DNA of 64,000 nt from Acetobacterium woodii DSM 1030 (lineage in GTDB: Bacteria > Bacillota > Clostridia > Eubacteriales > Eubacteriaceae), in contig NC_016894.1 of assembly GCF_000247605.1 (NCBI RefSeq), positions 1,911,732-1,975,731 on the forward strand, written 5' to 3'. The notes below the pieces were generated by a model. The model saw only the letters and a program-made list of their open reading frames with translations, was not told where the DNA came from and did no database searches. Below, in pieces: positions 6,867 to 59,735 of this stretch; positions within the stretch are counted from its first letter, which is position 1, and every line of letters begins with the position of its first letter. The position numbers were made by a program, and so were the translations under genes.

Positions 6867-6868
6867 AA

Positions 6869-6894
6869 AAAGTCAGGCCCAAAAGCTTGACTTT
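6869..6894. terminator. Bidirectional terminator between convergent GGDEF genes
   Basis: The inverted repeat AAAGTCAGGC / GCTTGACTTT is flanked by A-rich and T-rich sequence on opposite sides and lies in the 40-base gap between convergent stops. Confidence 0.7.
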
Positions 6895-6906
6895 AAATTA
6901 TCGATT

Positions 6907-7434
6907 TTAGCTGTCTTTTCTTGCAGCAAGCAAGGATTGCTTTGCTTTTTGAAGCAGCTCGTCACTAGTAATGTTCTCGGTAAGAATGGAGGTTGCGATG
7001 CCAACGGATAAGGTAACAACTTCGTCAGCCGAGGATTTGGCATGGACAATATTTAAATCTGCGATTGTTTTTTTGGCTTTTTCAGCCATTTTTATTGCAC
7101 CGATAGAATCGGTATCACTTAAAAGACAAATGAACTCCGTATTGCTCCATTTAGCGACCAGATCGCCGGATCGTTTAAAGATACCGGTTAAGGCTAAGGC
7201 AATTTGATGTGAACAGTTGTCAGCGGCCAGACGACCATAAGTGTTGATATATTGATCGAAGGCATTAATGTCAATTATGAGAAGGGATAGATAACGAATG
7301 GTCTCTTTTGCCCGTTCAATTTCGTGGCTCAGCATAGCATCAAATTTTTGCCGACTTATTATATGGGTTGTGGGATCAAAAAATTCAGGATTATCAATAT
7401 CGGACATATTGTTTAGATCATCAAATTTATTCAT
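6907..7434 (-). CDS. Stand-alone degenerate GGDEF-domain protein
   Basis: A 175-residue protein that is essentially one GGDEF domain. The fold-defining segments are present (LIIDINAFDQY, then SVGIATS), but the active-site loop reads KWSNTEF instead of RWGGEEF, so diguanylate cyclase activity is unlikely. It resembles the C-terminal domain of the hybrid protein at 8835-10976, including the shared L-x-D-T-D-S-x-GA segment after the loop, suggesting paralogy. It may act as a c-di-GMP/GTP-binding or regulatory domain (inference). It has no membrane segment. Confidence 0.85.
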   Translation of the reverse strand: MNKFDDLNNMSDIDNPEFFDPTTHIISRQKFDAMLSHEIERAKETIRYLSLLIIDINAFDQYINTYGRLAADNCSHQIALALTGIFKRSGDLVAKWSNTEFICLLSDTDSIGAIKMAEKAKKTIADLNIVHAKSSADEVVTLSVGIATSILTENITSDELLQKAKQSLLAARKDS

Positions 7435-8609: not shown

Positions 8610-8739
8610 GTACCGACAATTGTTAATCTGTTGCATGCACGCAATTCGTACAGTTGCAATTAAAGCTTTGGCTAAAATAGTCTTTTCGCTGCAACTGTTC
8701 GCCTTGAGGCGCACAACATGATCGAACAATTGTCGGTAC
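8610..8739. repeat. 130-bp interrupted long palindrome
   Basis: Perfect 15-bp outer arms GTACCGACAATTGTT (8610-8624) and AACAATTGTCGGTAC (8725-8739). Inner arms ACAGTTGCA (8650-8658) and TGCAACTGT (8690-8698) share the same centre, so the element can form one long imperfect hairpin. It lies between convergent genes. It could be a MITE-like repeat or a processed 3' structure; no long T run marks it as a normal terminator. Confidence 0.7.
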
Positions 8740-8834
8740 GGTCGTTTATTGACAATCTTAAAAGGACGCGTTCCCTTTTTTCAATCATAATCGGGATTGA
8801 ATGATTTAGCTGCAAGATAACCTAAAACAAGTGG

Positions 8835-10976
8835 TTATTTGTTAGATCGGGTAATCTGATTTCGTCCAGATTGCTTAGCATTGTGTAAAGCAATCTGAGC
8901 ATCGTCTAATAGGCGATCATAAGAATGGGCGATCGTATCAGTTCCGGTAGCAACACCTAATGAGATGGTAATGATCTTTTCAATAGGGGAAGATTGATGG
9001 GGGATTTTGAGATTGCTGATCGTTTGCTTCAAATTTTTGGCGACATGTAAGGCACCTTCGGAATCAGTGTCAGGGAGCAGGCAGACGAATTGTTGACCAC
9101 TCCATCGGGCGATCAGGTCGCCGGCTCTTCTTAATGGTTTTTTAAGGCTGAACGCAATTTCCTGAAGACAAGCATCACCTTCCCAAAATCCGTAGGTCTC
9201 ATTATAGGGTCTAAAGTAATCAATATCAATCATGATAATTGAAAGGGCTGACTTCATTCTTTTTGCTTTTCGTGTTTCAATGGCCAGCGTTTCGTCAAAG
9301 CGACGTCGGTTTGAAATTTGTGTAAGGGCATCCATATCAGAAGTTTGGTTAAGAATATCCTGAAAGTATTGAAGCGCCAGATGATTTCTAATTTTTTCTT
9401 CAACAAGCTTCAAATCAAAAGGTTTACTGATAAAATCAATCGCGCCAGTATTTAATTCGTAAACTTCATTTTCAGCATCGCTTATGGTCGTTAGAAAAAT
9501 GATCGGAATATCTTTGGTAGCTTCTTCCAGATGAATTTCTTTAGAAACATCATAACCGTTCATTCCCGGCATGCTCAAATCTAAAAGAATCATATCAGGG
9601 CGGGGACTGGTTTGCGCTAAGGCCAAGGCATCTTTGCCGTTGTTGGCAATCAAAAGCTCATAGTTTTTGTTTAACGTTTGTGCTAATAATTCCGTATTTT
9701 CCGTTGCATCATCTACAATTAGAAGACGTTGTTTAGGTGTTTCCTGAGGAGTGTCCGCCTTTTTATTAGTTTCCAGTCCCTTGCGTATTTGTTCGATGGC
9801 TCGCAGTTCTTCTGCTTTGAGGCGAGTATTCTGATTGTAGATGGACAGCGATTGAGACGAAGGACGGGTTTTTTCAGGATTTTTTGCGGTTTGATCAAGC
9901 AATAACAAAAGATCAAACGAAACAATAAATTCATCGTCGTTATTTTGGGAAAGTAATAAGTGACCATTCATTTTATTAACTAAAGATTTAACAAGTTCAA
10001 GACCAAAAGACAGCGGGTTGTTCATTTGAGAAAATTCATCATGATTAAAATTTGTAATAAAATCCGAATAATCAGTAATTTCATTTTTATTGAGAATGCC
10101 GATAGTTCTGATTGAAAAATATACTTTAAAAACTGTTTTTATGGTGTCTTCCGGAGTGATATCTATAAAAACAGTTCCTTGTTCTAAGCGTTCGAGTGAA
10201 TTGAGAACCAGGTAGGCAACAATCTGCTTGAGACGATTGGGATCACCCATTACTAATTGCGGTGTTTTAGCATGAATAGACAATTTGATGTTAATGTTTC
10301 TTCGTCGAGCGCGAACAATCAGTGGAATAATCGCGTTTTCAACAATGGTATAAAAATTGAAAGAGATCACATCATGAGTTATGGGTACTCCCGAATCAGT
10401 CCAGATAATAGCATTAATTAAATCCTCCAGAAGTTGAGACGAAAGTTGGATATTTTCCAAGCAGGTAGTTTGATCTGCGATAGTCTGCGTTTTTTTAAGT
10501 AATTTTGAAAAAAGGGTCAGACTTTCCAACGGGGCAAGAATTTCATTTGATAAAATTGAAGTAACTCTGTTTTTTTCAAAAAGGTCTAATTCAGCGGTTT
10601 TATTGGAGTTATAAAATGCACTCAGTTCTTGTCCCGAAGCGTAAATAAGGGTATCAACAAATCTGAATTGCCATTTTGCATGTCGGTAAGTCTCATCTTT
10701 CGAACGTAAACGACTGTTAAAATCTAAAATTTCATTTTGGGTGCCAAGTTGTTCACGGATATGGTTAAAGTTCGCTTTATCTTCAGGATGGAAAAAGTCA
10801 GTTAATTTTTTACTCTCAAGGTCACTCGTTGAATAACCAAGATTGTTCTCCCAGACGGGGTTGACCTTTAAAATTATTCCATTTACATCGGTGATGCAAA
10901 GATAATCCGAACTTACTAAAAAAATATTATTAAGATGTTCGTCGCTTTTTTCATTGATTGGAGATAACCCTTTCAT
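8835..10976 (-). CDS. PAS-kinase-like-REC-GGDEF hybrid signalling protein with degenerate catalytic motifs
   Basis: A 713-residue soluble protein. In order: PAS domain (about 15-125), HisKA-like helices (about 140-190), HATPase-like domain (about 200-360), receiver (about 415-535) and GGDEF domain (about 550-710). The HisKA box reads SNEILAPL where SHEIRTPL is expected, so the phospho-acceptor His is Asn. The ATPase domain keeps an N-box-like LKQIVAYLVLNSLE but lacks a clear DxGxG. The receiver is intact (DD, LLDLSMPG, LTT, SKPF). The GGDEF loop is SGQQF, probably inactive. It may therefore be phosphorylated by another kinase and act by binding. It lies next to other c-di-GMP genes. Confidence 0.87.
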   Translation of the reverse strand: MKGLSPINEKSDEHLNNIFLVSSDYLCITDVNGIILKVNPVWENNLGYSTSDLESKKLTDFFHPEDKANFNHIREQLGTQNEILDFNSRLRSKDETYRHAKWQFRFVDTLIYASGQELSAFYNSNKTAELDLFEKNRVTSILSNEILAPLESLTLFSKLLKKTQTIADQTTCLENIQLSSQLLEDLINAIIWTDSGVPITHDVISFNFYTIVENAIIPLIVRARRRNINIKLSIHAKTPQLVMGDPNRLKQIVAYLVLNSLERLEQGTVFIDITPEDTIKTVFKVYFSIRTIGILNKNEITDYSDFITNFNHDEFSQMNNPLSFGLELVKSLVNKMNGHLLLSQNNDDEFIVSFDLLLLLDQTAKNPEKTRPSSQSLSIYNQNTRLKAEELRAIEQIRKGLETNKKADTPQETPKQRLLIVDDATENTELLAQTLNKNYELLIANNGKDALALAQTSPRPDMILLDLSMPGMNGYDVSKEIHLEEATKDIPIIFLTTISDAENEVYELNTGAIDFISKPFDLKLVEEKIRNHLALQYFQDILNQTSDMDALTQISNRRRFDETLAIETRKAKRMKSALSIIMIDIDYFRPYNETYGFWEGDACLQEIAFSLKKPLRRAGDLIARWSGQQFVCLLPDTDSEGALHVAKNLKQTISNLKIPHQSSPIEKIITISLGVATGTDTIAHSYDRLLDDAQIALHNAKQSGRNQITRSNK

Positions 10977-47945: not shown

Positions 47946-48215
47946 TAATTAAGATGAAGCAAGATGCTCAGTTGTCTGCAAACGAGGCTTATTAATCATC
48001 TGGTTATTACAGAACAAAATGCCAAAGAGGTGTTAAATTATGATGATGAGAAATGATAATTTGCAAAAATATTATAAAATATTGCTTTGTTATATGTTTT
48101 AAAGTAAAATTTGTGCATAAAAGACTAAAAAAGTTAGCTGAGTTTTGAGAAATGAAACAATGATAAGATAATTGGCATAATTTTTATCTGGTTTACACGT
48201 AAAAGGAGAAAATAA
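47946..48215. other. AT-rich intergenic region before the DeoR gene
   Basis: No gene is seen. It should contain the DeoR gene's promoter, but no clean -35/-10 pair could be chosen. AAAGGAGA at 48201-48208 is the ribosome site of the DeoR gene. Confidence 0.4.
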
Positions 48216-48983
48216 ATGTTGCATATTGATCGAAGAAAAGAAATTCTTAATACAATTATGAGTAAAGGTTCGGTTAAAGTTGCCAATCTTTCAAAAAAAT
48301 ACGGTGTGGGAGAGGCAACAATACGTCGAGATTTAAAATACCTAGCGGAAGAATACGGGATCACTTTATCATACGGTGGGGCTTTCACCAAAGAAAAAAT
48401 TAATTATCAGACGACATCGGAAATGGATATTTACAAAAAGCGAACCCATAATATCGAGGAAAAGCGAATGATTGCCCAAAAAGCGGCAAAGCTTATTAAA
48501 AATGGAGATACTATTGCTTTAAATGCGGGTAGTACGGTAGAACTGGTTCTTGATTATCTTGAAAATATCAAGGACATTAATTTGATTACCTTATCGCTTA
48601 ATGTCGCGTTAAAGGCAGCCTCCATTCCGGGGATTACTGTTTATATGCCAGGTGGGAGGCTTCGTAGTTTTTCAGGAGCATTTTATGGGAAAGAGGCGAA
48701 TGAATTTTTGAAGAGCTTTAACATTGATAAAGCATTTATGGGGGTCATGGCGGTTTCTATAAGTAAGGGCATTACTCACGGAGCCTTTGAAGAAATTGAA
48801 ATAAATCAGACGATTTATGAAATTAGCCGGAAATGTTATCTTATGGCAGACTATTCAAAATTTGATAAGATTTCTTTGACTAAAATGGTTGATTTAACTA
48901 TTTTTGACGGTTTTGTTTTGGATGATAAAACCCCGGAACTCTATCATGAATATTGTAAAAGTAACAGTATAGAAATTATTTAA
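48216..48983 (+). CDS. DeoR/GlpR-family transcriptional regulator
   Basis: A 255-residue repressor-type protein. The N-terminus has the DeoR helix-turn-helix (VKVANLSKKYGVGEATIRRDL, in two parts around residues 20-40) preceded by RRKEIL. The C-terminal DeoR sensor domain shows NAGSTVE and the late DYSKFDKISL motif. These regulators respond to sugar or polyol phosphates. It precedes the FGGY kinase-methyltransferase genes and is a likely controller of them (inference). It is followed by its own terminator at 49022. Confidence 0.92.
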   Translation: MLHIDRRKEILNTIMSKGSVKVANLSKKYGVGEATIRRDLKYLAEEYGITLSYGGAFTKEKINYQTTSEMDIYKKRTHNIEEKRMIAQKAAKLIKNGDTIALNAGSTVELVLDYLENIKDINLITLSLNVALKAASIPGITVYMPGGRLRSFSGAFYGKEANEFLKSFNIDKAFMGVMAVSISKGITHGAFEEIEINQTIYEISRKCYLMADYSKFDKISLTKMVDLTIFDGFVLDDKTPELYHEYCKSNSIEII

Positions 48984-49021
48984 ATAATCAATTTGAAACA
49001 AATCCAATTTATAAATATATT

Positions 49022-49055
49022 AAAGGCACATCAAAATCGATGATGCTTTTTTTTT
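49022..49055 (+). terminator. DeoR gene terminator
   Basis: The hairpin AAAGGCA-CATC / GATG-A-TGCTTTT (one bulged A, one G-T pair) with a six-base loop ends in nine Ts. Confidence 0.75.
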
Positions 49056-49155
49056 GGCAAAATTCGGGATATTTGTTTAGTTAATAGAAAAACATAATAT
49101 ATTCGTAAATGACAGATAAATACAAAAATATAATATCGATTTTATGGTAGAAATG

Positions 49156-49184
49156 TTGACATATAAATATAAAATGACTATAAA
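49156..49184 (+). promoter_or_regulatory. Promoter P1 upstream of the kinase-methyltransferase genes
   Basis: TTGACA at 49156-49161, a 17-base spacer and TATAAA at 49179-49184. Confidence 0.7.
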
Positions 49185-49220
49185 TAATATATAAAATGAA
49201 TATGAAATTACTATGAAATA

Positions 49221-49249
49221 TTGACATTGCATATTTATCGTGATATATT
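49221..49249 (+). promoter_or_regulatory. Promoter P2 upstream of the kinase-methyltransferase genes
   Basis: TTGACA at 49221-49226, a 17-base spacer and TATATT at 49244-49249. P1 and P2 are 65 bp apart and share surrounding AT-rich words such as TATAAAAT and TGAAAT, possible regulator sites. Confidence 0.75.
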
Positions 49250-49369
49250 AGAAAAATAAAGATGTAAAAATATTAAAATTTACGAAAAATATAATTTGAT
49301 ATGACACTATTGATTCAAATGACAAGACGTTAGCGTCTAAAAAGATCAGGATAATGATAAAAGTATTAA

Positions 49370-49525
49370 GGTCAGAAAGTCATTGATATTGGAATTGCTG
49401 TACCACGAGAGAATTTCATAATCTCTTACTCAAGATTTCTATGCTGAATGGGAAGTGATAGATTTGCAAAAGATACTGGAGGTGTTGTCGCGAACTGTGT
49501 CAAAATAACGTTTATCTCTGACTAA
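49370..49525 (+). pseudogene. Relic of a methyltransferase corrinoid protein
   Basis: One frame reads GQKVIDIGIAVPRENF followed by a stop, then in the same frame MGSDRFAKDTGGVVANCVK and a terminal stop at 49523-49525. The first part matches GLKVIDIGIDVPAEKF and the second matches TGCDAYAKDAGGAAALAVK of the intact corrinoid protein at 52504-53133, in the same order and with the second part at the C-terminus. About 50 intervening residues and the N-terminal half are missing. It is therefore a decayed corrinoid-protein gene lying between promoters P1/P2 and the FGGY kinase. Confidence 0.75.
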
Positions 49526-49612
49526 GCCACAATGATTGAAATGCTAGGAGTTTTTGTACATAATTGTTGCTGAGATGTTGTTGGTTTAACTAATAATTGA
49601 TTATTTGTTAAA

Positions 49613-49676
49613 GTTCACAAAATTGTTTCGTGCGAAACCGATCACAAAACTCATGGCAGTTTCGCAATTATCTAAG
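49613..49676. repeat. Partial copy of the palindromic repeat upstream of the FGGY kinase
   Basis: AAATTGTTTCGTGCGAAAC (49619-49637) and GGCAGTTTCGCAATTATCTAA (split here as GGCAGTTTCG and CAATTATCTAA) match the right end of the element at 20393-20563 in the same order and spacing. The left arm was not found, so it is truncated or diverged. It lies just upstream of the kinase ribosome site. Confidence 0.6.
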
Positions 49677-49703
49677 TACAATCAAATTTAAAAGGAGATA
49701 GAA

Positions 49704-51191
49704 ATGGGAAAGTACGTACTCGTTATTGATGAAGGAACCTCCGGCACTCGAGCTTTGATTTTCAATGAAAAATTACAAATAGTTGCTCAGAGTTATGAGG
49801 AATTCACACAGTATACCCCTAGCGAAGAAAAGGTCGAGCATGACGCTTTGGAAATTTATGAAAAAAGCGTTGCAATGTGTAAAAAAGCCATAGGCGAGGC
49901 CATGATTTCACCTGAAGAAATTGCTTGTATTGGGATTACTAACCAGCGGGCTACCTGTTTGGTATGGGATAAGGAAACCGGAGAACCTTTATATCATGCT
50001 ATCGTTTGGCAGGATACAAGAACCGCAGCCCTTTGTCAGGAACTCAATGCCGGAGAATGGGGCGAAAAGGCAAGAAAGACAACTGGTTGGACATTGGCTC
50101 CGGTCTATTCTTCAATGATGTTGAATTGGTACCTTAATAATGTTCCCATTATTAAGAAAAAAATTGAAGCCGGTGAAGCCCTCTTTGGTACCATTGATAC
50201 CTGGCTTATCTGGAAATTAACCGGTGGAAAAAAACATGCAGTCAGTTATTCCAATGCCTCTGTGATGGGGAGTCTTGATTTAAAAACCGGAGAATGGTAT
50301 GACGAATTTCTAACTTATCTTGGCATTGATCGAAAAATATTTCCGGAAATTATCACTGATTCAGGTGATTTTGGAGTTGTACAAAAGGATATTTTGGGTG
50401 CTGAAATTCAAATTACCGGTGTTATTGCTGATCAGCATGCCGCTTTGTTTGCGCAAGGCTGCCGTACCGCAGGGACCGGAAAAATCACGAATGGCACCGG
50501 TTCATTTTTGGATATCAACGTTGGAACAGAATGTGTTATTTCTAACCAGGGACTTAATACAGTAATTGCCTGGAAAATTGGAGATGCGATGACTTATGCC
50601 CTTGAAGGTTATGAATCCGTTACTGGTTCTGCCGTTCAATGGCTAAGAGATGGTTTGGAAGTGATTACCGAGTCCAGCGAAACAGAAGCTCTGGCTCGAT
50701 CGGTTGAAGACACGAATGGGGTATACTTTGTTCCAGCGCTTGCCGGATTGAGTGCACCATATCATGACCCTTATGCGCGCGGTACTATTTTTGGTATCAC
50801 TCGTGGGACAAAAAAAGCACATTTGGTCAGAGCTACATTGGAAGGTATTGCCTTTAGACTCAAAGACATTATGGACGTTGTGGCTAAAGAGGCTGGTATT
50901 AAAATGAAAGCTATTCGTATTGATGGCGGGGCTTCTAAAAATAATTTATTAGCTCAAATGATGGCAGACATGATGGATGTCCAGGTAGATCGACCTTTTT
51001 CAGTGGAAGCAACCAGTTTAGGCGCAGCTGAAATGGCTGGACTTTTTATCGGGCTATGGAAAGAAGAAGATTTTGTTGAAGCACTCACCATTGAAGCAAG
51101 CTTTACGCCTGAAATTGCTAAAGAAAAACGAAGCAAAGCCTATGCCGGATGGCAGGAAGCTATCAAGCGATCAATGGACTGGAATTATTGA
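49704..51191 (+). CDS. FGGY-family carbohydrate kinase, glycerol-kinase-like
   Basis: A 495-residue ASKHA-fold sugar/polyol kinase most like glycerol kinase along its length (VIDEGTSGTRALIF, IVWQDTRTA, DPYARGTIFGITRG). Glycerol-contact residues differ, by alignment with E. coli GlpK from memory: R83 is kept (R82 here), E84 is Ala (A83), Y135 appears as Val (V134), D245 is kept in IADQHAALF with Gln246 replaced by His. The substrate is therefore probably a polyol or sugar other than glycerol. AAGGAG precedes the ATG. It is the first intact gene of a row with the methyltransferase and corrinoid protein (150- and 13-base gaps). Confidence 0.88.
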   Translation: MGKYVLVIDEGTSGTRALIFNEKLQIVAQSYEEFTQYTPSEEKVEHDALEIYEKSVAMCKKAIGEAMISPEEIACIGITNQRATCLVWDKETGEPLYHAIVWQDTRTAALCQELNAGEWGEKARKTTGWTLAPVYSSMMLNWYLNNVPIIKKKIEAGEALFGTIDTWLIWKLTGGKKHAVSYSNASVMGSLDLKTGEWYDEFLTYLGIDRKIFPEIITDSGDFGVVQKDILGAEIQITGVIADQHAALFAQGCRTAGTGKITNGTGSFLDINVGTECVISNQGLNTVIAWKIGDAMTYALEGYESVTGSAVQWLRDGLEVITESSETEALARSVEDTNGVYFVPALAGLSAPYHDPYARGTIFGITRGTKKAHLVRATLEGIAFRLKDIMDVVAKEAGIKMKAIRIDGGASKNNLLAQMMADMMDVQVDRPFSVEATSLGAAEMAGLFIGLWKEEDFVEALTIEASFTPEIAKEKRSKAYAGWQEAIKRSMDWNY

Positions 51192-51338
51192 TTTAATTAA
51201 AAACGGCATGATTAAAAAGTAAAAAACGAGTCAATTGGAAAAGTGGCACGAGTTTTGTTGTCTGTTCCTATAACCAGAAGAAATTCGCAGTAAAATTAAT
51301 GAATTTCATAAGAGTGATGATTACAAGGGAGGTATAAA

Positions 51339-52490
51339 ATGAATTCACGTGAAAGAGTCATGACTGCAGCCAATCACGAAGAACCAGATCGAGTGCCTGT
51401 GGATATGGTATTGACCATTGATGTATACCGAGATATGAAAAAATTTTTGAATATGGAGCATCTTCCGGAAACTCCCAGAATGGGACGATGGACAGAGGTG
51501 CAGATGCCGATTGAAATGATAAAAAAATTGGGAATCGACATGTATTACATTTCCCCTCGTTCCGGGAAATCTATTCATAGTAAAAGTTTTGACGACGGCA
51601 GTTTCATCGATGAATGGGGATGCTACTGGAAAAAAACAGCCATTGATGGCGGTCATTTTTATTTTGAACTGATTAATCCGCCTCTGGCTCAAGCTTCGAT
51701 TGATGATCTGGAAACCTATGTTTGGCCGGATCCCGAAGATCCTAAACGCTATGCTGGTCTGAAGGAAGAAATGAAAGAGGTAAGAGAAACCACAGATCTT
51801 GCCATTCTGGCTAAATTTGCTGGAGCCGTTTTTGAACTGGCAACCTATATGAGAGGTCACGAACAATGGTATCGGGATATTATTAATAATCAGGAATTTG
51901 CCCATGCCCTCATGGATAAAATATGTCAGATTCAAAAGCGGACTAACGAGGTAATTATGGCTGAGGTCGGAGAATACGTGGATATTTTAAGACTTAGTGG
52001 TGAAGATCTGGGAATGCAGGATCGTCCGCTGATTTCACCGAAAACGTTTAGAAAGGTGGTTAAACCCCATCTTAAGGAACTTTGGGAGCATGCAAAAATG
52101 ACATTGCATCAATATAATCCGGAAGCAAAAATTATGTTGCATAGCTGCGGGTCAGTTAGACCATTTATATCGGATATAATCGAATGCGGAGTGGATATTC
52201 TTGATCCGGTGCAGCCTGCAGCTAAAAATATGAATCGTTATGAATTAAAAGAAGCCTTCGGCAAGGATATCGTTTTTCACGGTAACATTGATATTCAAAA
52301 TATTTTACCTTTTGGAACTATCGAAGATGTTACTGGAGAGGTGCGGGATGCTATTAAAGCCTTAGCACCTGGTGGAGGATTTTTATTGGCACCGGCCCAC
52401 AATGTTCAGGGAGATGTGAGTGCGGAAAAATTGGTGCACATGGTTAAATGTGTTCACGAATTCGGAAACTATCCCATTAATCTGGAGTAA
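51339..52490 (+). CDS. URO-D-family corrinoid methyltransferase
   Basis: A 383-residue protein of the uroporphyrinogen decarboxylase/MtaA-MtvB superfamily. It has the family start RVMTAANHEEPDRVPVD and a zinc site of the methyltransferase type: H268-x-C270 in MLHSCGS and H354 in APAHNVQ in place of the Cys of MtaA. The corrinoid protein follows directly, so it most likely moves a methyl group from a substrate to that protein, as O-demethylases of acetogens do. The methyl donor is unknown. True UroD (heme synthesis) is unlikely given the zinc motif and the partner gene. GGGAGGT precedes the ATG. Confidence 0.88.
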   Translation: MNSRERVMTAANHEEPDRVPVDMVLTIDVYRDMKKFLNMEHLPETPRMGRWTEVQMPIEMIKKLGIDMYYISPRSGKSIHSKSFDDGSFIDEWGCYWKKTAIDGGHFYFELINPPLAQASIDDLETYVWPDPEDPKRYAGLKEEMKEVRETTDLAILAKFAGAVFELATYMRGHEQWYRDIINNQEFAHALMDKICQIQKRTNEVIMAEVGEYVDILRLSGEDLGMQDRPLISPKTFRKVVKPHLKELWEHAKMTLHQYNPEAKIMLHSCGSVRPFISDIIECGVDILDPVQPAAKNMNRYELKEAFGKDIVFHGNIDIQNILPFGTIEDVTGEVRDAIKALAPGGGFLLAPAHNVQGDVSAEKLVHMVKCVHEFGNYPINLE

Positions 52491-52503
52491 GGGAGGAATG
52501 AAA

Positions 52504-53133
52504 ATGGAAATACTAAAGAAAATATCGGAAACATTGTATGACGGCGATGAATATGCCATGCCCGGACTCGTCCAGGAGGCCATCGATGCCGACATCTCTC
52601 CTCAGGAAGTGTTAGATGCCATGATGGCAGGAATGGCTATTGTGGGTGAAGAATTCAGCCGGGATGAACTTTATATTCCAGAAGTTCTCTGTTCTTGTCA
52701 CGCCATGATGGAAGGGTCGAAAATATTAAAGCCTCTGTTGACAGATCGGGATGCGAAATCGTTAGGTACCGTTATTCTTGGTAGTGTCCAGGGCGATATG
52801 CATGATATCGGGAAAAATCTGGTTGGGATGCTGTTGGAGGGCCGGGGCCTGAAGGTGATTGATATCGGCATCGATGTGCCGGCTGAAAAATTTGTGGAAG
52901 CGGCAATTGCAAATAAGGCAGATATTGTAGCCTGTTCAGCACTATTGACAACCACAATGCCAGAAGTTCCCCAAATTATTAAAGCATTTGAGGAGGCCGG
53001 GACACGGGATCAGGTGAAAATAATGATTGGTGGGGCACCAATCACCCAGGAATTCTGTGATCGCACCGGTTGTGATGCTTATGCTAAAGATGCCGGGGGA
53101 GCTGCTGCGCTGGCCGTTAAATTGTGTCAATAA
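52504..53133 (+). CDS. Methyltransferase corrinoid protein
   Basis: A 209-residue cognate corrinoid protein. An N-terminal helical domain is followed by a B12-binding domain with SVQGDMHDIGKN (H100 as cobalt ligand), VIDIGIDVP, SALLTTTM and IGGAPIT. GGGAGGA is six bases before the ATG at 52504; an ATG at 52498 overlaps it. It pairs with the URO-D methyltransferase, whose stop is 13 bases upstream. The methyl would go next to tetrahydrofolate by a MeTr-type enzyme not in the window. A reductive activator is also needed and is not seen here. Confidence 0.93.
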   Translation: MEILKKISETLYDGDEYAMPGLVQEAIDADISPQEVLDAMMAGMAIVGEEFSRDELYIPEVLCSCHAMMEGSKILKPLLTDRDAKSLGTVILGSVQGDMHDIGKNLVGMLLEGRGLKVIDIGIDVPAEKFVEAAIANKADIVACSALLTTTMPEVPQIIKAFEEAGTRDQVKIMIGGAPITQEFCDRTGCDAYAKDAGGAAALAVKLCQ

Positions 53134-53229
53134 TGGGGAGGTCCAATTAATGGATTCTGTCGGAACAGTAATTTGTTTTTAATCGAATCAGTGATGTAGA
53201 TCTATAGCGAATCAATTTGTAGCGTATAA

Positions 53230-53275
53230 AACAGTAGCCAATCATCTTCAGACTGGCTGCTGTTTAATTTTTTTT
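53230..53275 (+). terminator. Terminator after the methyltransferase operon
   Basis: AACAGTAGCCA (53230-53240) pairs with TGGCTGCTGTT (53254-53264), one G-T pair, followed by a run of Ts. Confidence 0.88.
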
Positions 53276-53331
53276 AACGGTTATCTCGAATCAGAGGAGC
53301 TTGTAAAAAATGGTATTTGAAAAAAAGTCAA

Positions 53332-54330
53332 TCATTTCACCAGATATGGCGTTCGCGCCGGAGCTTCCCAAAATTTTAATTTTTCGGCATCCATCCGGGC
53401 AAAAAACAATTGGAAGCCGGCTTGTTCCTGGACAGTTAAAATTTCTTCAACCCAATTTGCCACGATGATGATGCCTTTTTTATTTAAATATTTATAAACT
53501 TTTCGATAAATAATCAACATTTCCATGATTGTTGTAGCGCCCGTGCCATTGACAATGACCATTATTTCATCACCAGAATGAAGGTTTAAATCTTTAATGA
53601 GTAAATCTGACATTAACATTGCAGTTTCATCAGCACTGGCCATTTTTTGACGTCGGTTACCGCCTTCACCATGCTGGCCCGTGCCAATTTCCATTTCATC
53701 ATCGTTGAGAACAGAAAAAGCGGAGCCATTTTGCGGATGTGTTGCTGTTTTAGAGGCGACACCAATAGTAGCCATATTTTCAGAAAAATTCTGGGCTAAA
53801 GTGGTAATTTGATGAAGTGTTTTTCCTTGCGCTGCGGCGGCACCAGTTATTTTAAATAGCGGAACACAACCCACTAAGCCACGGCGTTTTAGACTTTCTG
53901 AACGGGCCGCGACAGCAATGTCTTCATGAGTAATGACCATCGAAACATCGAGCCCGATTTTTTTTACTTCTTGCATGGCTTTATTAGCCGTAAGAATATC
54001 ACCGTTATGGTTGAGAACAATGAGTAATATTCCTTTTCCTTTGTCAGCAAGTTGGAGCGCTTCAAAAACGGATTGACAACCAGGTGCTGAAAAAATCTCC
54101 CCAACAACGGCAATATCGATCATTCCTTCACTAACGTATCCTTCAAGCGCCGGTTCATGGCCTGATCCTCCCAGAGTAACAATAGTGACCCGATTTGCGT
54201 GCATTAAATCCTTGCTGATAACAAGATTGTTTGAAGTTACTTCGAGAATCGATTGATTCGCAAGAGCAAGACCTTCTAACAATTCTGTTGTGATATTTTC
54301 AGGACGGTTAATAAATTTTTTCTGGATCAT
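53332..54330 (-). CDS. dhaK: Dihydroxyacetone kinase subunit DhaK homologue
   Basis: A 332-residue DhaK-like protein that in the known family binds dihydroxyacetone covalently. All key residues are visible: H58 in GGSGHEP, D111 in NGDIL and the hemiaminal His H220 in GTGQHGEGG. No DhaL (ATP/ADP subunit) or DhaM (PTS subunit) is adjacent, so phosphorylation needs a partner from elsewhere, or the protein serves as a binding or sensing subunit. It is convergent with the corrinoid gene and divergent from the two-component genes. Confidence 0.88.
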   Translation of the reverse strand: MIQKKFINRPENITTELLEGLALANQSILEVTSNNLVISKDLMHANRVTIVTLGGSGHEPALEGYVSEGMIDIAVVGEIFSAPGCQSVFEALQLADKGKGILLIVLNHNGDILTANKAMQEVKKIGLDVSMVITHEDIAVAARSESLKRRGLVGCVPLFKITGAAAAQGKTLHQITTLAQNFSENMATIGVASKTATHPQNGSAFSVLNDDEMEIGTGQHGEGGNRRQKMASADETAMLMSDLLIKDLNLHSGDEIMVIVNGTGATTIMEMLIIYRKVYKYLNKKGIIIVANWVEEILTVQEQAGFQLFFARMDAEKLKFWEAPARTPYLVK

Positions 54331-54520
54331 CGTATTTTCCTTTGTATTTAAAATAGAATCAAATTTGAGTAGTTATAAAAATATTGATATATATAATCAT
54401 AATATTAACAAGAGTTTATTTATCTTAACAAAAATAAAGAAGTTTAACAACAGCGATGTAATGAAAAGCTGTTTAACGGTAATGAAAAAAAGAATTAATC
54501 CTCAAATCAGTGTGAGAAAG

Positions 54521-54557
54521 TTGTAACCATGAGATTAATCAGTTATAATTAATCAGT
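54521..54557 (+). promoter_or_regulatory. Promoter of the two-component operon with direct repeats
   Basis: TTGTAA at 54521-54526, a 17-base spacer and TATAAT at 54544-54549. The word ATTAATCAGT occurs at 54534-54543 and again at 54548-54557, 14 bp apart and overlapping the -10; it may be a regulator site. The rest of the 54331-54661 gap is AT-rich with no supported gene. Confidence 0.6.
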
Positions 54558-54661
54558 ATTGAATAGAGCTTCATTTGAAAAATAATAGAATTCTGTAAGA
54601 CGAATATAAAACTTTCTGGATTAGTAAAGTTTCCTGTAAAGAAGTATAAAAGGTGGAAGAA

Positions 54662-55375
54662 ATGTTGAAAATAGCGATTTGCGAAGACGAAGAAGAACAT
54701 AAAAATTTATTAGTTGAGTTAATTAATCGTTTTGAATTTGGAAGCGATTATTTATTGACAGCGTTTAAATTTGGTAAAGACTTAATCGCTGAGTATCATA
54801 ACGGAAATAGGTATGATATTATTTTTCTTGATATGCATTTAGAAAATGAAGATGGCATTGATGTCGCTAATGAGATTAGAAAAAAAGATGAAAAAACTCA
54901 GATTGTCATTACAACGTCATTAATTGAATATGCGATCTTAGGTTATTCGGTCAATGCCAGTGATTTCCTTCTTAAGCCTTTATCTCAGGAAAAAGTAGAT
55001 CTAATTTTAAATAAAATGGTGCAAAAAAAGAAAAAATTAGCTGCAAATTTTCATGAAATAGAAATTAACAATGAAAAAGTTATCTTGAGAACGGATGAAA
55101 TCTTGTATTTTGAAAGTATTGGACGAAAAATAAAAGTGGTAACAACGGATGGATCTTATGACTATTATTATACCATATCAGCTTTAGTGAGGGATTTGGA
55201 CCCGACTCAGTTTATCTTGTGTCATCGTTCTTATATCATAAACTTAAAAAATGTGAGACGAATTAAAAAAGGTCTGGCGGTTATTAAAAAAGGAGTCGAG
55301 ATACCGATTAGTGTAAAAAAGTATCAGCTTGTCTATGATGCATTTACAAAATATTTGTCTGAGGAAATTCGATGA
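54662..55375 (+). CDS. AgrA-like response regulator with LytTR DNA-binding domain
   Basis: A 237-residue regulator: receiver domain (1-120) with acidic pocket CEDEEEH, phospho-acceptor Asp in FLDMHL, and LLKPL; then a LytTR domain (about 135-235) with ILYFESIGRKIKVVT and FILCHRSYIINLKNV. I prefer the ATG at 54662, six bases after AAAGGTGGA; a GTG at 54653 is inside that site. The stop overlaps the histidine kinase start by four bases (ATGA). Confidence 0.92.
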   Translation: MLKIAICEDEEEHKNLLVELINRFEFGSDYLLTAFKFGKDLIAEYHNGNRYDIIFLDMHLENEDGIDVANEIRKKDEKTQIVITTSLIEYAILGYSVNASDFLLKPLSQEKVDLILNKMVQKKKKLAANFHEIEINNEKVILRTDEILYFESIGRKIKVVTTDGSYDYYYTISALVRDLDPTQFILCHRSYIINLKNVRRIKKGLAVIKKGVEIPISVKKYQLVYDAFTKYLSEEIR

Positions 55376-56727
55376 ACGATTTAAATGACTATATCATGTT
55401 CGTTTCCATTATATCAAATGTATCAGCAATTGCGATTTGTTATTATTTTTTAAACGGTATACTGGACAAAAAAGTAATGCCGAAAATTTTAAAATACGCT
55501 ATTTTAATTTGTCTGGCATTTTTATTTATTGGTATTTTGTTGATATACCGACAGTCAATAATTTTTGTTTTTGTATCGGCGCTTGTTTTTTCGTTGATCA
55601 GTTTAATTTTTTTTCAGGGGCATATCGCCGTCCGTTTATTTTTTGGATTGTTATTTCTGATTTTTGGGATATTTTGTGAATTTATCGCAGGCGTAATTTT
55701 ATCAGTCGTTTTTTCCTTCCCACTTATCGAATTGCAACATTATACGGCATATTATGCCGCGGTGGTTGTTTTTTCTAAAATATTGTTACTGATGATTGTC
55801 TATTTTTTATTTGTAATAACCAAAAGAGGTGCAATACCTTCAGTACGTTTTATTTGGATTTTAGTTTCCAGTATACCCATTAGCAGTTTGATCGTTAGTT
55901 TAAACTTATACGTAATGGTAACTCGGATCGAAGGTAGTGCATGCATTGGCATTATGACGGCATTAACATTGATCTATATCAATATCGTTTTTTTTGCAAT
56001 CTTAAAAGTGATGAAAATCGAGTCAGAAAAAACGGTTCAATATAAAAATGAAAATATCCAATTAGAATTCCAACAGCAGCATTATCATGATCTGCTCGAG
56101 ACAAATCACGAAGTGCGTGCGATCTGGCATGATATGAATAATCATTTGATAACACTACAATATTTAATTGATAAATGCGCTTATGACGAAATCAATAGTT
56201 ACCTCGATCAATTACTAAAAAACGTCCATGAAACGGACAAGCATAACATCTCAGGAAATTATGTAGTTGACGCGATATTAGGGAACAAGATTAAAGTGGC
56301 AGAGCAGAATGACATTAAGTTTATTCATTCAATTTCCATGCCGGAAGTGATTGAAATTGATAATGTCGATTTTTCGATTCTGTTAGGGAACATTATTGAT
56401 AATGCAATTGAAGGGTGTTTGCGAGCTAAACCTGAATGTGAGAAGATCATTAAATTAAATTTACGATTTCACAAAGAAGTGCTATTAATTTATGTCGAAA
56501 ATACCTGTGATATTGATACGATAACAGAAATTGATCATTCATATATCAGTAGCAAAAAAAAGAATACGAACAAAAGAGGGTACGGGATTACGAACATCAA
56601 TTATGTGTTAGATAAATATGAAGGCAATATTGTTAATCAAATAGAAAAAAATCGCTTTATTAGTACAATTCTTATTCCTTTTGTTAAAGAAACAGAACAA
56701 AAAACCATGAAAATTGACAAAATCTGA
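55372..56727 (+). CDS. AgrC-like sensor histidine kinase (GHKL)
   Basis: A 451-residue membrane sensor. About six to seven hydrophobic segments fill residues 8-215, with little extracellular loop, as in peptide- or small-molecule-sensing AgrC/VirS-like kinases. The phospho-acceptor His is H253 in IWHDMNNH. The GHKL ATPase has NIIDNAIEG and RGYGITNI. Its start overlaps the response regulator stop. No signalling peptide gene was recognised nearby, so the ligand may be a nutrient from the adjacent pathway (inference). Confidence 0.9.
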   Translation: MNDLNDYIMFVSIISNVSAIAICYYFLNGILDKKVMPKILKYAILICLAFLFIGILLIYRQSIIFVFVSALVFSLISLIFFQGHIAVRLFFGLLFLIFGIFCEFIAGVILSVVFSFPLIELQHYTAYYAAVVVFSKILLLMIVYFLFVITKRGAIPSVRFIWILVSSIPISSLIVSLNLYVMVTRIEGSACIGIMTALTLIYINIVFFAILKVMKIESEKTVQYKNENIQLEFQQQHYHDLLETNHEVRAIWHDMNNHLITLQYLIDKCAYDEINSYLDQLLKNVHETDKHNISGNYVVDAILGNKIKVAEQNDIKFIHSISMPEVIEIDNVDFSILLGNIIDNAIEGCLRAKPECEKIIKLNLRFHKEVLLIYVENTCDIDTITEIDHSYISSKKKNTNKRGYGITNINYVLDKYEGNIVNQIEKNRFISTILIPFVKETEQKTMKIDKI

Positions 56728-56742
56728 TGAATGCGGTATTAT
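56714..56742 (+). promoter_or_regulatory. Promoter of the SorC-type regulator inside the kinase gene
   Basis: TTGACA at 56714-56719, a 17-base spacer and TATTAT at 56737-56742. The -35 lies within the end of the kinase coding region. Confidence 0.8.
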
Positions 56743-56773
56743 ACTGGCATTTAAAGATAGTCGAGGTGAAGGT

Positions 56774-57718
56774 TTGAAAGAGAAAGAAGAAAATGAATTA
56801 AATCGATTGATTTATGTTTCGAAAAGTTATTATGAAGAAAATAAAACCCAATCTGAAATCGCAAAAGAACTTGATATTTCGCGACCAACGGTAAGTTATC
56901 TTTTGAATAAAGCGAGAAAGGCTGGAATTGTTAAAATTGATGTTTTAACTTATTATCAGACACATCGGGGAATCAGTCAGGAATTGTGCCAACAGTTTAA
57001 TTTAAAAAGTTGTCAAGTTATTACGAACCCAGACGATTTATACCAGGCTGCCGGTAATCGCTTGCTGGAATTTTTGCCCAAAACCAGGGTGTTGGGTTTA
57101 GGTTGGGGGATTAATATCAGTCGGATTATTGACGGGATCGCGCGGCAAACAAAATGGCAAATAACGGATAAAATAGTATGTCCACTGATTGGACCAACCA
57201 TTGCACCGCTTAGGGGGTACGACCCGAATGAGTTGATTAAAGAGCTTTCTCAAAAGATCTTTTTTGAGGCTGAATATTTAAACTGCCCCGCATTTCCAAT
57301 CAGTAGTCAGGAGCAAAATGATTTTTTAGAGACTGAAAATTATCAAAAAATACATAAATTATGGAAAAAAACGAACACCGCCTTAGTTGCTTTTGGTAGT
57401 TTTCCTTCGGTACCCGATCATGCGTCAGCATTACGTTTTGGAAAAAAACTGATCGAAGAGAAAGCCGAAGGTTGCTTACTTTCATACTTTTTTAATCCTG
57501 CCGGAGAACTGATAAAAGGCAGTGATGATTTTAGTATTCAGATCCCCTTAAATTTCCTCAAGCGCGTCCGGAATGTGATTGGTTTTGTGCCTCAGGAAGC
57601 AAATGTCTTTGCTATTTTAAGCGGATTAAAGGCTGGATACGTTAATCATCTGGTGATATCAGAAGAACTGGCTGAAGAACTTATAAAAACCAATCATTTA
57701 TTAGCGAATTTGAGGTAA
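56774..57718 (+). CDS. SorC/CggR-type sugar-binding transcriptional regulator
   Basis: A 314-residue regulator. An N-terminal helix-turn-helix (KTQSEIAKELDISRPTVSYL, about residues 22-41) is followed by a large sugar-phosphate-binding domain typical of SorC/DeoR-type regulators (VLGLGWGINI, late GLKAGYVNHLVISE). I chose the TTG at 56774, five bases after GAGGTG; an upstream in-frame TTG at 56714 coincides with the promoter -35 and is unlikely. It is a second candidate regulator of the kinase-methyltransferase or dhaK genes. Confidence 0.88.
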   Translation: MKEKEENELNRLIYVSKSYYEENKTQSEIAKELDISRPTVSYLLNKARKAGIVKIDVLTYYQTHRGISQELCQQFNLKSCQVITNPDDLYQAAGNRLLEFLPKTRVLGLGWGINISRIIDGIARQTKWQITDKIVCPLIGPTIAPLRGYDPNELIKELSQKIFFEAEYLNCPAFPISSQEQNDFLETENYQKIHKLWKKTNTALVAFGSFPSVPDHASALRFGKKLIEEKAEGCLLSYFFNPAGELIKGSDDFSIQIPLNFLKRVRNVIGFVPQEANVFAILSGLKAGYVNHLVISEELAEELIKTNHLLANLR

Positions 57719-57719
57719 T

Positions 57720-57750
57720 AAAAAGCAAGCTGCTAAGCTTGCTTTTTTTA
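57720..57750 (+). terminator. Terminator of the SorC-type regulator gene
   Basis: AAAAGCAAGC / GCTTGCTTTT stem with a TGCTAA loop, ending in a T7 run. Confidence 0.88.
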
Positions 57751-57818
57751 ATGGCATTTTTATTATTTTACGCACTTATATCCAGAGTGTTTATTTTGGG
57801 AGTGTGGTTTTGTGGTAG

Positions 57819-59735
57819 TTACCAACTACCAACGCCTCCGCCCCCGCCCCCGCCACCGGAGAAACCACCCCCACCGGAAAAGCCGCCGCCGCCAAAACCG
57901 CCAGATCCGGAATGGGGAGGAACAATAATCGTTGATGCGATATGATCCATACTATGCATCAGGCTTGAGGCAAAGAGTAGCGATGTGAAATTATTGCCAT
58001 AAGTGGCTCCATAATACCAACTTGGTTGGGGGATGTTAATTGTTTCAAAGTTTTTTGCCCATTTATCGGTGATTCCTAAAACGTAAGCATATGGAAGAAT
58101 ATTGAAAAAATATTGAGGATTTTCGTTTACCAGGGCAATAATCCGATCTTTTTCGGCTTTTTCAATAAAATTCTTAAACCCCAGTACCTGTCCAAGCCAA
58201 AGGCGACCGGTCTCTGTACGTTGCGTTGCAACGATTTGGAAACAGGCGATCCCGCCGGTAGCGAATAACGCCAACAGGATGGGCAAAATAGAGGTATAAT
58301 CCATCAGAGAATTGATTAAAATCAGAATCGCAATGGAGACAAGTAACAATAAAAGACCAAGGATCAAACGACCGATGGTTTTTTTTCTGGCCATACCATT
58401 ACGATTACGGATAGCCGAAGTAATGAGATTAGCACTAAAAACAGTCGGTACGATTGCAAAACATGAGACGATCCCAATAAATAGCAATCCGTCGGATAAC
58501 GGTGTTAACATCCCAATTTTGTATACGCCATTGATAACATAAGCCAGTAATGGCAAAGCCATTAAAATACTGATCACTACGAGACCGGCTTTAGAAGAAT
58601 GGGTGAATAGTTGGTTTTCGGGAATATCAAAATAGTCTTTGATTTGTCCTTTGGTGGCAATAAAGGTATCATAAAAACTTTCCGGCACACTGGTTGTTGA
58701 AAAACTGTCTTTTTGATCAAAAATATCATTAAATAAAGTTTGTTCAAAATCGAAGGCGTCGGCAGGTAAGTTTTTAATTTTGTGAAAAATGAAATTTTTC
58801 TTGTCAATTTGTTCAATTGTCATATATCCTTTGTCAGCCCAATACATCAACAAGGATAAAACTTCAGCTTTATCCAAGGTGCCATCGACAACAAAGCCGA
58901 TTTGTGATGGGGTGAAATTTTGAGGAGGATAAAACTCGATTGTTTCAACTGGCTTTTTATCGCGACCGGTGAAAAACCAGATTACAGCTGCGCCAATGAG
59001 GGCAAGCGCAAAAATAATGTACATCAATGGATCAAATTCATTACCGGTAAAAGCGCCAATAAAATAACCTTGAGGTAAATTTATTTTTAAAGTTACGCCC
59101 TGGTTATTGGATAATGGTTGGTTAAGGTTCCCTTCAATGGTATTTCCATTAACGGTAAAACTAACACCGTCGGTATTGGTGCTACCATATCCACCAGTGA
59201 TAAATTCCACTTGCGAAGCATCAAAAGCTTTGGGCATGACAATTTTGAAATGAGCGTTTTGAATACTGGTGTCCGAATTCTGCGGGATAATATTAAAGTA
59301 GACATCATCCATGGAGCTTATTTTATCATCACCAGGATCCCAGATATAAGAAATTAGATAGCTTTGAGTTCCGCTGACATAGCTGTTGCTATTTCCGATT
59401 TTGATAAGATAATTGTCATTTTCGGTGGATACGTCATAATCAAAATTAGCAACATTTATCTTGCTGACCCGAGCACGATACGATGTTTCGACCGGTTGAC
59501 CGTTTATTTCGCGGTAAAAACTGCCAGCGTAAGGAATATAGCGATAAATACCATGGCTTTGTTGGGAAAAAGTAACTGTTAGATTTTCGTTAACAGCATA
59601 GGCATGATTTTCCTGAACATTCATGGTTACATCGTATTGGTTAATAATAAAATTTTCTTGAGCCAAGGCATTTCCCGGAAACATAATGCCGCAAAAAAGA
59701 AGCCCAAGAAGGAGTAGGATACTGTGTTTTTTCAT
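57819..59735 (-). CDS. DUF2207-domain membrane protein with glycine-rich tail
   Basis: A 638-residue protein. An N-terminal signal peptide (about 25 residues, ending near NALAQ) leads to an extracytoplasmic DUF2207 domain (about 30-230), then a membrane segment near 240-260, a cytoplasmic part with a winged-helix-like stretch, two to four more membrane segments near 395-500, and a C-terminal tail of glycine with Phe and Ser that ends VGSW. Function is unknown. It follows the LemA gene by 121 bases on the same strand, a very common pairing, so an envelope role together with LemA is likely. Confidence 0.87.
   Translation of the reverse strand: MKKHSILLLLGLLFCGIMFPGNALAQENFIINQYDVTMNVQENHAYAVNENLTVTFSQQSHGIYRYIPYAGSFYREINGQPVETSYRARVSKINVANFDYDVSTENDNYLIKIGNSNSYVSGTQSYLISYIWDPGDDKISSMDDVYFNIIPQNSDTSIQNAHFKIVMPKAFDASQVEFITGGYGSTNTDGVSFTVNGNTIEGNLNQPLSNNQGVTLKINLPQGYFIGAFTGNEFDPLMYIIFALALIGAAVIWFFTGRDKKPVETIEFYPPQNFTPSQIGFVVDGTLDKAEVLSLLMYWADKGYMTIEQIDKKNFIFHKIKNLPADAFDFEQTLFNDIFDQKDSFSTTSVPESFYDTFIATKGQIKDYFDIPENQLFTHSSKAGLVVISILMALPLLAYVINGVYKIGMLTPLSDGLLFIGIVSCFAIVPTVFSANLITSAIRNRNGMARKKTIGRLILGLLLLLVSIAILILINSLMDYTSILPILLALFATGGIACFQIVATQRTETGRLWLGQVLGFKNFIEKAEKDRIIALVNENPQYFFNILPYAYVLGITDKWAKNFETINIPQPSWYYGATYGNNFTSLLFASSLMHSMDHIASTIIVPPHSGSGGFGGGGFSGGGGFSGGGGGGGGVGSW

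Follow-up and report, generated by a model that had tools for sequence, protein, structure and literature searches.

A corrinoid methyltransferase unit with a glycerol-kinase-like kinase in Acetobacterium woodii: a candidate O-demethylase for a small methylated polyol

We examined a 64-kb stretch of the genome of Acetobacterium woodii DSM 1030 (the window), in which three genes lie in line: a glycerol-kinase-like kinase of the FGGY family (FGGY1), a methyltransferase I (MTI) of the URO-D fold (MT) and its putative cognate corrinoid protein (CP). A second kinase, found beside MT in Eubacterium, is called FGGY2; genomes carry G numbers and the locus stretches that were read carry L numbers. We hold with good confidence that the unit is real and conserved. 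Our reading of the whole, which we advance tentatively, is a corrinoid O-demethylase that works together with a kinase on a small O-methylated polyol, most likely one of the glycerol-ether type (e.g. mono-O-methylglycerol). The parts of this reading differ in strength. Demethylation of an O-methyl polyol by the module is probable, with a methyl ether as the presumed donor. That the substrate is of the glycerol-ether type is a more doubtful step, and if it is, we lean towards the kinase acting before demethylation, at about even odds.

Conservation of the kinase, methyltransferase and corrinoid protein

We compared a family set of 40 genomes, made up of Acetobacterium, Eubacterium and metagenome-assembled genomes classified no further than family or phylum. 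Seventeen of the 40 had an MT match at E≤1e-60 (16 intact and one fragment, in G007), and FGGY1 orthologues (at least 73% identity) were also present in 17. Sixteen genomes had both, one had each alone and 22 had neither (Fisher p 4.4e-9, kinship not corrected). Because 16 of 17 genomes are shared, this co-occurrence is not due to chance. Two genomes do not fit: G007 has FGGY1 and MT only as fragments (L047), and in G026, which is 80% complete, no MT was found and FGGY1 starts 96 bases from the end of a contig.

MT has the URO-D fold and the corresponding Pfam match. In all 16 genomes with an intact MT, the MT cluster also encodes CP and an FGGY kinase, and an FGGY1 orthologue lies somewhere in the genome. 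The arrangement varies. FGGY1 lies within the MT-CP cluster in all 10 Acetobacterium genomes that have both; G022-G025 carry FGGY1 and FGGY2 together in the MT cluster; and in G027 and G028 FGGY2 is alone there, while FGGY1 heads an operon elsewhere. FGGY2 is located between MT and CP in all six of these latter genomes. CP adjoins MT in Acetobacterium and is one gene apart in Eubacterium. A preliminary description of the window had made its reading depend on the trio of methyltransferase, corrinoid protein and kinase being kept together in relatives, and such a trio is present in 16 of 16 family genomes with intact MT and in L216, a locus of another class.

Beyond the family, MT matches become sparse. 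A class sample of 391 genomes gave matches at E≤1e-60 in 10, of which five are Eubacteriaceae; a phylum sample of 398 gave matches at E≤1e-50 in 33, the A. woodii genome counted. We read the neighbourhood of the best match in each of the 20 best-scoring other genomes (L216-L235; L219, L227 and L230 are shortened by contig ends). An FGGY gene was present in five (L216, L220, L224, L226, L227) and a CP gene in five (L216, L217, L218, L222, L225), with both together in L216 only. The gene order of L216 is CP (40% identity), a PocR-AraC regulator, FGGY2 (53%), MT (45%) and a RACo activator. L217 reads URO-D, CP, MIP channel, methyltransferase II (MTII), MT, CP; its MIP gene (6493-7158) is split into two open reading frames (ORFs) that cover profile parts 8-113 and 145-222. 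L224 contains MT, an FGGY kinase, triosephosphate isomerase and GlpA-, GlpB- and DUF1667-like genes, with no CP.

Eight further relatives (L113-L120) are 34-37% identical to MT, and no CP was found in the stretches read. Identity falls to 19-22% for four other URO-D proteins of A. woodii and one CP-linked URO-D protein of L040. As an observation in its own right, the URO-D proteins of L113-L120 and of 15 of the 20 loci L216-L235 are 32-38% identical to MT by BLAST, often lie in what by eye are sugar or acid-sugar clusters, and have no CP in the stretch.

Two sets of MT residues are conserved. His268 and Cys270 are invariant in 16 of 16 aligned rows and align with the HxC of 4ay7, which would form part of a zinc site of the MtaA type, made of His-x-Cys plus a distal Cys. 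Residues 44 (Glu or Asp), Glu59 and His80 are acidic, Glu and His in 16 of 16 rows, with the spacing of E-X14-E-X20-H. The latter is the spacing of a zinc motif of the veratrol and vanillate O-demethylases of A. dehalogenans; the papers searched for the motif did not give it, and the fit stays a lead.

Kinase pockets and the candidate substrate

The preliminary description had allowed that the kinase might be a plain glycerol kinase, and the pocket residues speak to this point. In GlpK, Arg83, Glu84, Tyr135 and Asp245 form the hydrogen bonds to glycerol and Phe270 completes the signature (PMC3245297); PMC2680290 describes similar contacts. All 17 FGGY1 orthologues have Arg83, Ala84, Val135, Asp245 and Phe270, so that two of the five signature residues are replaced, and FGGY1 also retains Trp103 and Gln246. 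With Glu84 and Tyr135 replaced throughout, we rejected plain glycerol kinase as the identity of FGGY1. FGGY1 scores 575.9 bits against TIGR01311, under the cut-off of 590.35, and passes that of the broader PRK00047. A second A. woodii kinase, a GlpK encoded beside GlpP, GlpA and GlpB homologues, has all five signature residues; FGGY1 is 46% identical to it.

FGGY2 (four of four aligned Eubacterium sequences) and the L216 kinase have Arg83, Cys84, Thr135, Asp245 and Val270, with Trp103 and Gln246 retained. Both MT-partner kinases thus lack the GlpK residues at the same two positions that bind hydroxyls, and FGGY2 departs at Phe270 as well. Judged by these residues, the altered pockets fit a substrate that resembles glycerol but has a hydroxyl capped or missing, which is short of proof. 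The loss of hydroxyl-binding residues suggests that the methylated compound itself may be the substrate of the kinase.

Under the proposed mechanism, DeoR would release the promoter at 49221 and FGGY1 would phosphorylate the methylated polyol. MT would then transfer the methyl group on the ether oxygen to CP in its Co(I) state, and an MTII encoded elsewhere would pass it to tetrahydrofolate and so to the Wood-Ljungdahl pathway. The demethylated polyol phosphate would enter triose metabolism. There is no MTII gene in the A. woodii cluster. An MTII of PF00809 lies downstream of CP in L034 and also in L035. More broadly, an ORF of 268-270 amino acids follows CP in L032, L033, L034, L040 and L041, assigned by PF00809 in L034, by similar sequence in L040 and L041, and by length alone in L032 and L033. 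A. woodii encodes a 75% identical MTII at 1849395, adjoining another corrinoid gene.

The gene context in relatives supports a glycerol-type substrate, with GlpP, GldA- and GlpA-type genes in Eubacterium and the MIP channel between CP and an MTII-like gene in L217. The E. callanderi locus L038 encodes GldA, DeoR, GlpP (PF04309), MT, FGGY2, CP, FGGY1, a GlpA-like FAD enzyme (NF033460 265.6 bits, cut-off 460), a GlpB-like protein and a DUF1667 homologue. Here "GlpB-like" is our own label for a second FAD/NAD oxidoreductase, and the DUF1667 Pfam match was made in L163. The GlpP antiterminator gene is beside MT in all six Eubacterium genomes with MT.

Several observations weigh against our reading. 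FGGY1 paralogues (55-62% identity) away from MT are also altered at positions 84 and 135, to Asn/His in L138-L142 and to Ser/Ala in L137 and an A. woodii copy, so the change is not specific to a methyltransferase partner; in the 46% paralogue encoded at 1048133, position 135 is Asn. The FGGY1 structure model had a pLDDT of 41.9, too poor for use, and was discarded. There are no transporter or dehydrogenase genes within the A. woodii unit. MT has Gly at the position of the distal zinc Cys in 4ay7; zinc is not universal, being absent from CdmB and, according to PMC13222342, from the Moorella O-demethylase. Fifteen of the 20 neighbourhoods outside the family lack FGGY and 15 lack CP in the stretch read, and many resemble sugar or acid-sugar clusters by eye; these MT relatives may perform other chemistry or act on other sugars. 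Part of the FGGY1-MT linkage in Acetobacterium could come from joint gain and loss of neighbours. Finally, none of glycerol, ethylene glycol and 2-methoxyethanol supported growth of E. limosum SA11 (PMC4791908), which counts against simple forms of the reading if SA11 holds the cluster.

The order of the two reactions may be reversed. MT would demethylate a methyl polyol first, and FGGY1 would then phosphorylate a freed, non-glycerol polyol suited to the changed pocket; we regard this as somewhat unlikely. As a rule, a kinase that accompanies catabolic enzymes takes the sugar alcohol they release, and this favors demethylation first. A non-glycerol product is also possible given that FGGY1 lacks two glycerol contacts and that A. 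woodii has another GlpK. The SDR and transketolase-like genes (named by eye) beside the 61% paralogue, which is likewise changed at 84 and 135, would suit a longer polyol. However, FGGY1 retains Arg83, Trp103, Asp245, Gln246 and Phe270, which leaves the pocket of glycerol type, and both changed residues bind hydroxyls, in keeping with a capped hydroxyl. Demethylation followed by phosphorylation of the alcohol was also the order favored in the preliminary description. From that proposal, the conserved unit with a polyol-kinase relative stands, the DhaK, LytTR and SorC genes drop out, and the substrate class is still one that we infer.

The paralogues are of interest in themselves. The 61% one (L057, A. 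woodii 2733773-2735251), which adjoins those SDR and transketolase-like genes, has Ser for Asp10, Ser84, Ala135 and Ile270 and no GTG loop, and may be catalytically impaired or changed. In L167 (879-9582), a 55% paralogue and a DeoR gene lie beside genes that by eye resemble those of a glycyl-radical enzyme, its activase and a distant URO-D-like protein.

The methyl donor could instead be a methylated sugar, sugar acid or tetritol, not a glycerol ether, and to this we likewise assign a low probability. MT relatives (34-37% identity and others) lie near sugar transport, KDG-kinase-like and OtnK-like genes by eye, and the best NCBIfam model for FGGY2 is XylB (371.8 bits, cut-off 380.25). Against a sugar donor, the closest solved structures to FGGY2 are glycerol kinases (6k78, E 9e-68), and both partner kinases keep GlpK-like Arg83, Trp103, Asp245 and Gln246, unlike the FGGY kinases near the distant MT relatives L115, L220, L224, L226 and L227, which lack the Arg83 pattern. 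GlpP, GlpA-like and MIP genes also accompany the module in some genomes.

A donor of another kind, such as a methyl halide, quaternary amine or thioether, with the kinase merely sharing the locus, is quite unlikely. A related fold does act on chloromethane, in CdmB of A. dehalogenans (PMC13222342). However, the starts of MT and CP differ from those of CdmB and CdmC, and the FGGY-MT-CP association holds for two FGGY subfamilies and in a separate class.

In Eubacterium, where FGGY1 heads an operon of glp-like genes, those genes are followed by an FAD enzyme resembling alkyl-dihydroxyacetone phosphate (DHAP) synthase (AGPS). The best PDB match of the L165 copy is AGPS (E 1.9e-53; best D-lactate dehydrogenase 9.3e-35). 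It has SHHHGSGK where AGPS has SHHHGVGK, and a Tyr aligned with AGPS Tyr578; the SHHHG-GK motif and Tyr578 are important residues of AGPS. Of the 40 family genomes, 10 have an orthologue (at least 66% identity); three of the 10 are Acetobacterium (G006, G009, G012), and in G012 no MT or FGGY1 was detected with the cut-offs used. A search of the A. woodii genome at E≤1e-60 did not find the gene, and we rejected it as part of the A. woodii pathway. The 373-amino-acid protein encoded after it had no Pfam match and a best PDB match of E 0.16.

With the AGPS-like enzyme in Eubacterium FGGY1/glp-like operons, a route of ether breakdown can be drawn, although we give it little weight. The opened-pocket kinase would phosphorylate the ether first and the corrinoid MT would then demethylate it; in Eubacterium, longer alkyl ethers would become alkyl-DHAP through the GlpA/GlpB-like pair and be split by the AGPS-like enzyme in the breakdown direction. 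That the Eubacterium operon instead makes ether lipids, with a purely regulatory tie to the methyltransferase, is improbable: AGPS is the best solved match, SHHHG-GK and the aligned Tyr are in place and G012 has the gene without MT and FGGY1, but DeoR/GlpP control and GlpA-type oxidation suggest catabolism, and among the 10 Acetobacterium genomes that have both FGGY1 and MT, eight, including A. woodii, have no AGPS-like gene at E≤1e-60.

Layout and control of the A. woodii locus

All eight genes named in the preliminary description have intact reading frames and belong to the families assigned there, with FGGY1, MT and CP in line as described (Table 1). FGGY1 and MT are separated by 147 bp and MT and CP by 13 bp. 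No plus-strand terminator-like site was found in either gap; two such sites, at 51025 and 51805, fall within the FGGY1 and MT genes.

Table 1. Features of the A. woodii locus (window positions) and AGPS-like genes of related loci (positions within each locus)
Feature	Position	Strand	Evidence
DeoR-family repressor, probable unit regulator	48216-48983	+	PF00455 153.9 bits, PF08220 46.7 bits
Five tandem 11-bp repeats, candidate DeoR operator	49167-49219	+	Read from sequence; end 1 bp before -35 box
Sigma-70-type promoter, TG before -10	49221-49249	+	11/12 consensus positions; TTGACA-17-TATATT
Decayed remnant, second corrinoid-protein gene	49370-49482 (about)	+	DNA match to L046 corrinoid gene
FGGY1, glycerol-kinase-like kinase, altered pocket	49704-51191	+	PF00370/PF02782; PRK00047 580.8 bits; residues
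MT, URO-D-fold methyltransferase I	51339-52490	+	URO-D fold and Pfam match
CP, putative cognate corrinoid protein, two-domain B12-binding	52504-53133	+	PF02310, PF02607; TIGR02370 190.9 bits (under 215.3 cut-off)
Dak1 (DhaK)	53332-54330	-	Family match
LytTR response regulator	54653-55375	+	Family match
GHKL kinase	55372-56727	+	Family match
SorC-type regulator	56714-57718	+	Family match
Alkyl-DHAP-synthase-like FAD enzymes, in glp-like operons, beside FGGY1 or a 59% paralogue	L163:12081-13499, L165:4935-6395, L166:9260-10687		

The promoter-like site upstream of FGGY1 has the top score in 48000-58000, tied with a site at 56714. We scanned for the repeats with a three-unit pattern, allowing up to 3 mismatches; we had derived this pattern by eye from several of the same loci, so hits in those loci are partly by construction. 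It matched once in the window, with 0 mismatches, and once in total in five block shuffles of the window. Matches were present in 11 of 16 scanned FGGY1/MT loci (L033, L035, L036 and duplicate stretches were left out), each at most about 350 bp upstream of FGGY1 or MT, and in none of eight control loci; the pattern was missing from L029, L037, L040, L041 and L165. The matches ahead of FGGY1 in L038, L042 and L044 fall in stretches not used for drawing the pattern, though these three are close relatives.

The DeoR protein may read these repeats as its operator. Its orthologues (81-90%) precede FGGY1/MT in 10 Acetobacterium-group loci (L028-L032, L034, L037, L039, L040, L041), and of the four Eubacterium g3 genomes that have MT, G022-G024 carry a 69% orthologue and G025 does not. 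A 62% orthologue occurs in L163 and L164, separate FGGY1 operons where MT lies elsewhere. No DeoR orthologue was found beside MT in G025, G027 or G028. We rejected a known leader RNA or riboswitch, since searches at gathering scores gave no Rfam match for the window, L038, L034 or L163, and the folding of the leader (49250-49703) does not surpass that of shuffled sequences (z 0.68).

The stretch from the promoter to FGGY1 contains the remnant of a second corrinoid gene, which the preliminary description does not mention. At the DNA level, 47 bp (80%) and 58 bp (78%) of it match the L046 corrinoid gene (8624-9256), with the order kept. The order in L046 is DeoR, MT, CP, a 285-amino-acid ORF, FGGY1, MT, CP. 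An upstream copy was thus probably lost in A. woodii.

The DhaK, LytTR pair and SorC genes had been counted as parts of the module. They follow it in seven Acetobacterium records (the window, L028, L030, L031, L032, L034, L039) and do not follow it in L029, L033 (a short contig), L037, L040, L041 or the Eubacterium loci read. We rejected them as members because they are not conserved with MT. The A. woodii dhaK has no DhaL gene beside it. In several relatives a second cluster, made up of DhaK, DhaL, a 106-amino-acid ORF and a DeoC/LacD-type aldolase together with a SorC gene, is placed between LepA and DeoR; A. woodii lacks it here. The GHKL kinase has 451 amino acids in A. woodii and the matching ORF 286 in relatives such as L028 and L034, where its N-terminal sensor part is different or broken.

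Comparison with known systems

Acetogen genomes encode many methyltransferase systems without an assigned substrate; in A. dehalogenans there are 26 putative systems (PMC13222342). For one such system, the kinase pocket and the operons of relatives narrow the substrate class. If our reading is right, a model acetogen would gain an aliphatic methyl ether as a substrate; should the ether-lipid side hold too, this would suggest how anaerobes degrade glycerol ethers.

Our literature searches covered part of the literature. There we found no publications on FGGY with corrinoid and methyltransferase or on glycerol kinase with URO-D, and among the matches listed for kinase-methyltransferase pairing, methylglycerol use and glycerol ether breakdown there was no description of the module. 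None of the methylglycerol matches listed concerned corrinoid demethylation, as judged by title and the start of the abstract.

The CdmBCA chloromethane system of A. dehalogenans shares the three-protein plan and the MTI superfamily with the module, but the N-termini of CdmB and CdmC, taken from published primers, differ from those of MT and CP, and also from those of the A. dehalogenans locus L034 (PMC13222342). On these N-termini we rejected CdmBCA as the identity of the module. By the account of that paper, Cdm did not demethylate methylated or methoxylated alcohols.

AGPS has a homologue with its His-rich motif in Eubacterium FGGY1 operons, but none was found in the A. woodii genome at the cut-off given above. 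GlpK and the GlpK-GlpP-GlpA-GlpB-DUF1667 operon resemble the module in the 46% identity of FGGY1 to the GlpP-linked GlpK of A. woodii and in the similar Eubacterium gene set; unlike GlpK, FGGY1 has two of five signature residues changed, misses the TIGR01311 cut-off and is joined to a methyltransferase. The acetogen O-demethylases of the MtvB/VdmB/OdmB type (URO-D MTI, CP, MTII and activator) likewise combine a URO-D MTI with a two-domain CP, and several relatives of the module add MTII and L216 adds RACo. Unlike them, the module is tied to glycerol-kinase-like kinases and in Eubacterium also to glp-type genes. We conclude that the module, of which we found no earlier description in the literature searched, is probably a variant of the corrinoid O-demethylase plan that includes a kinase.

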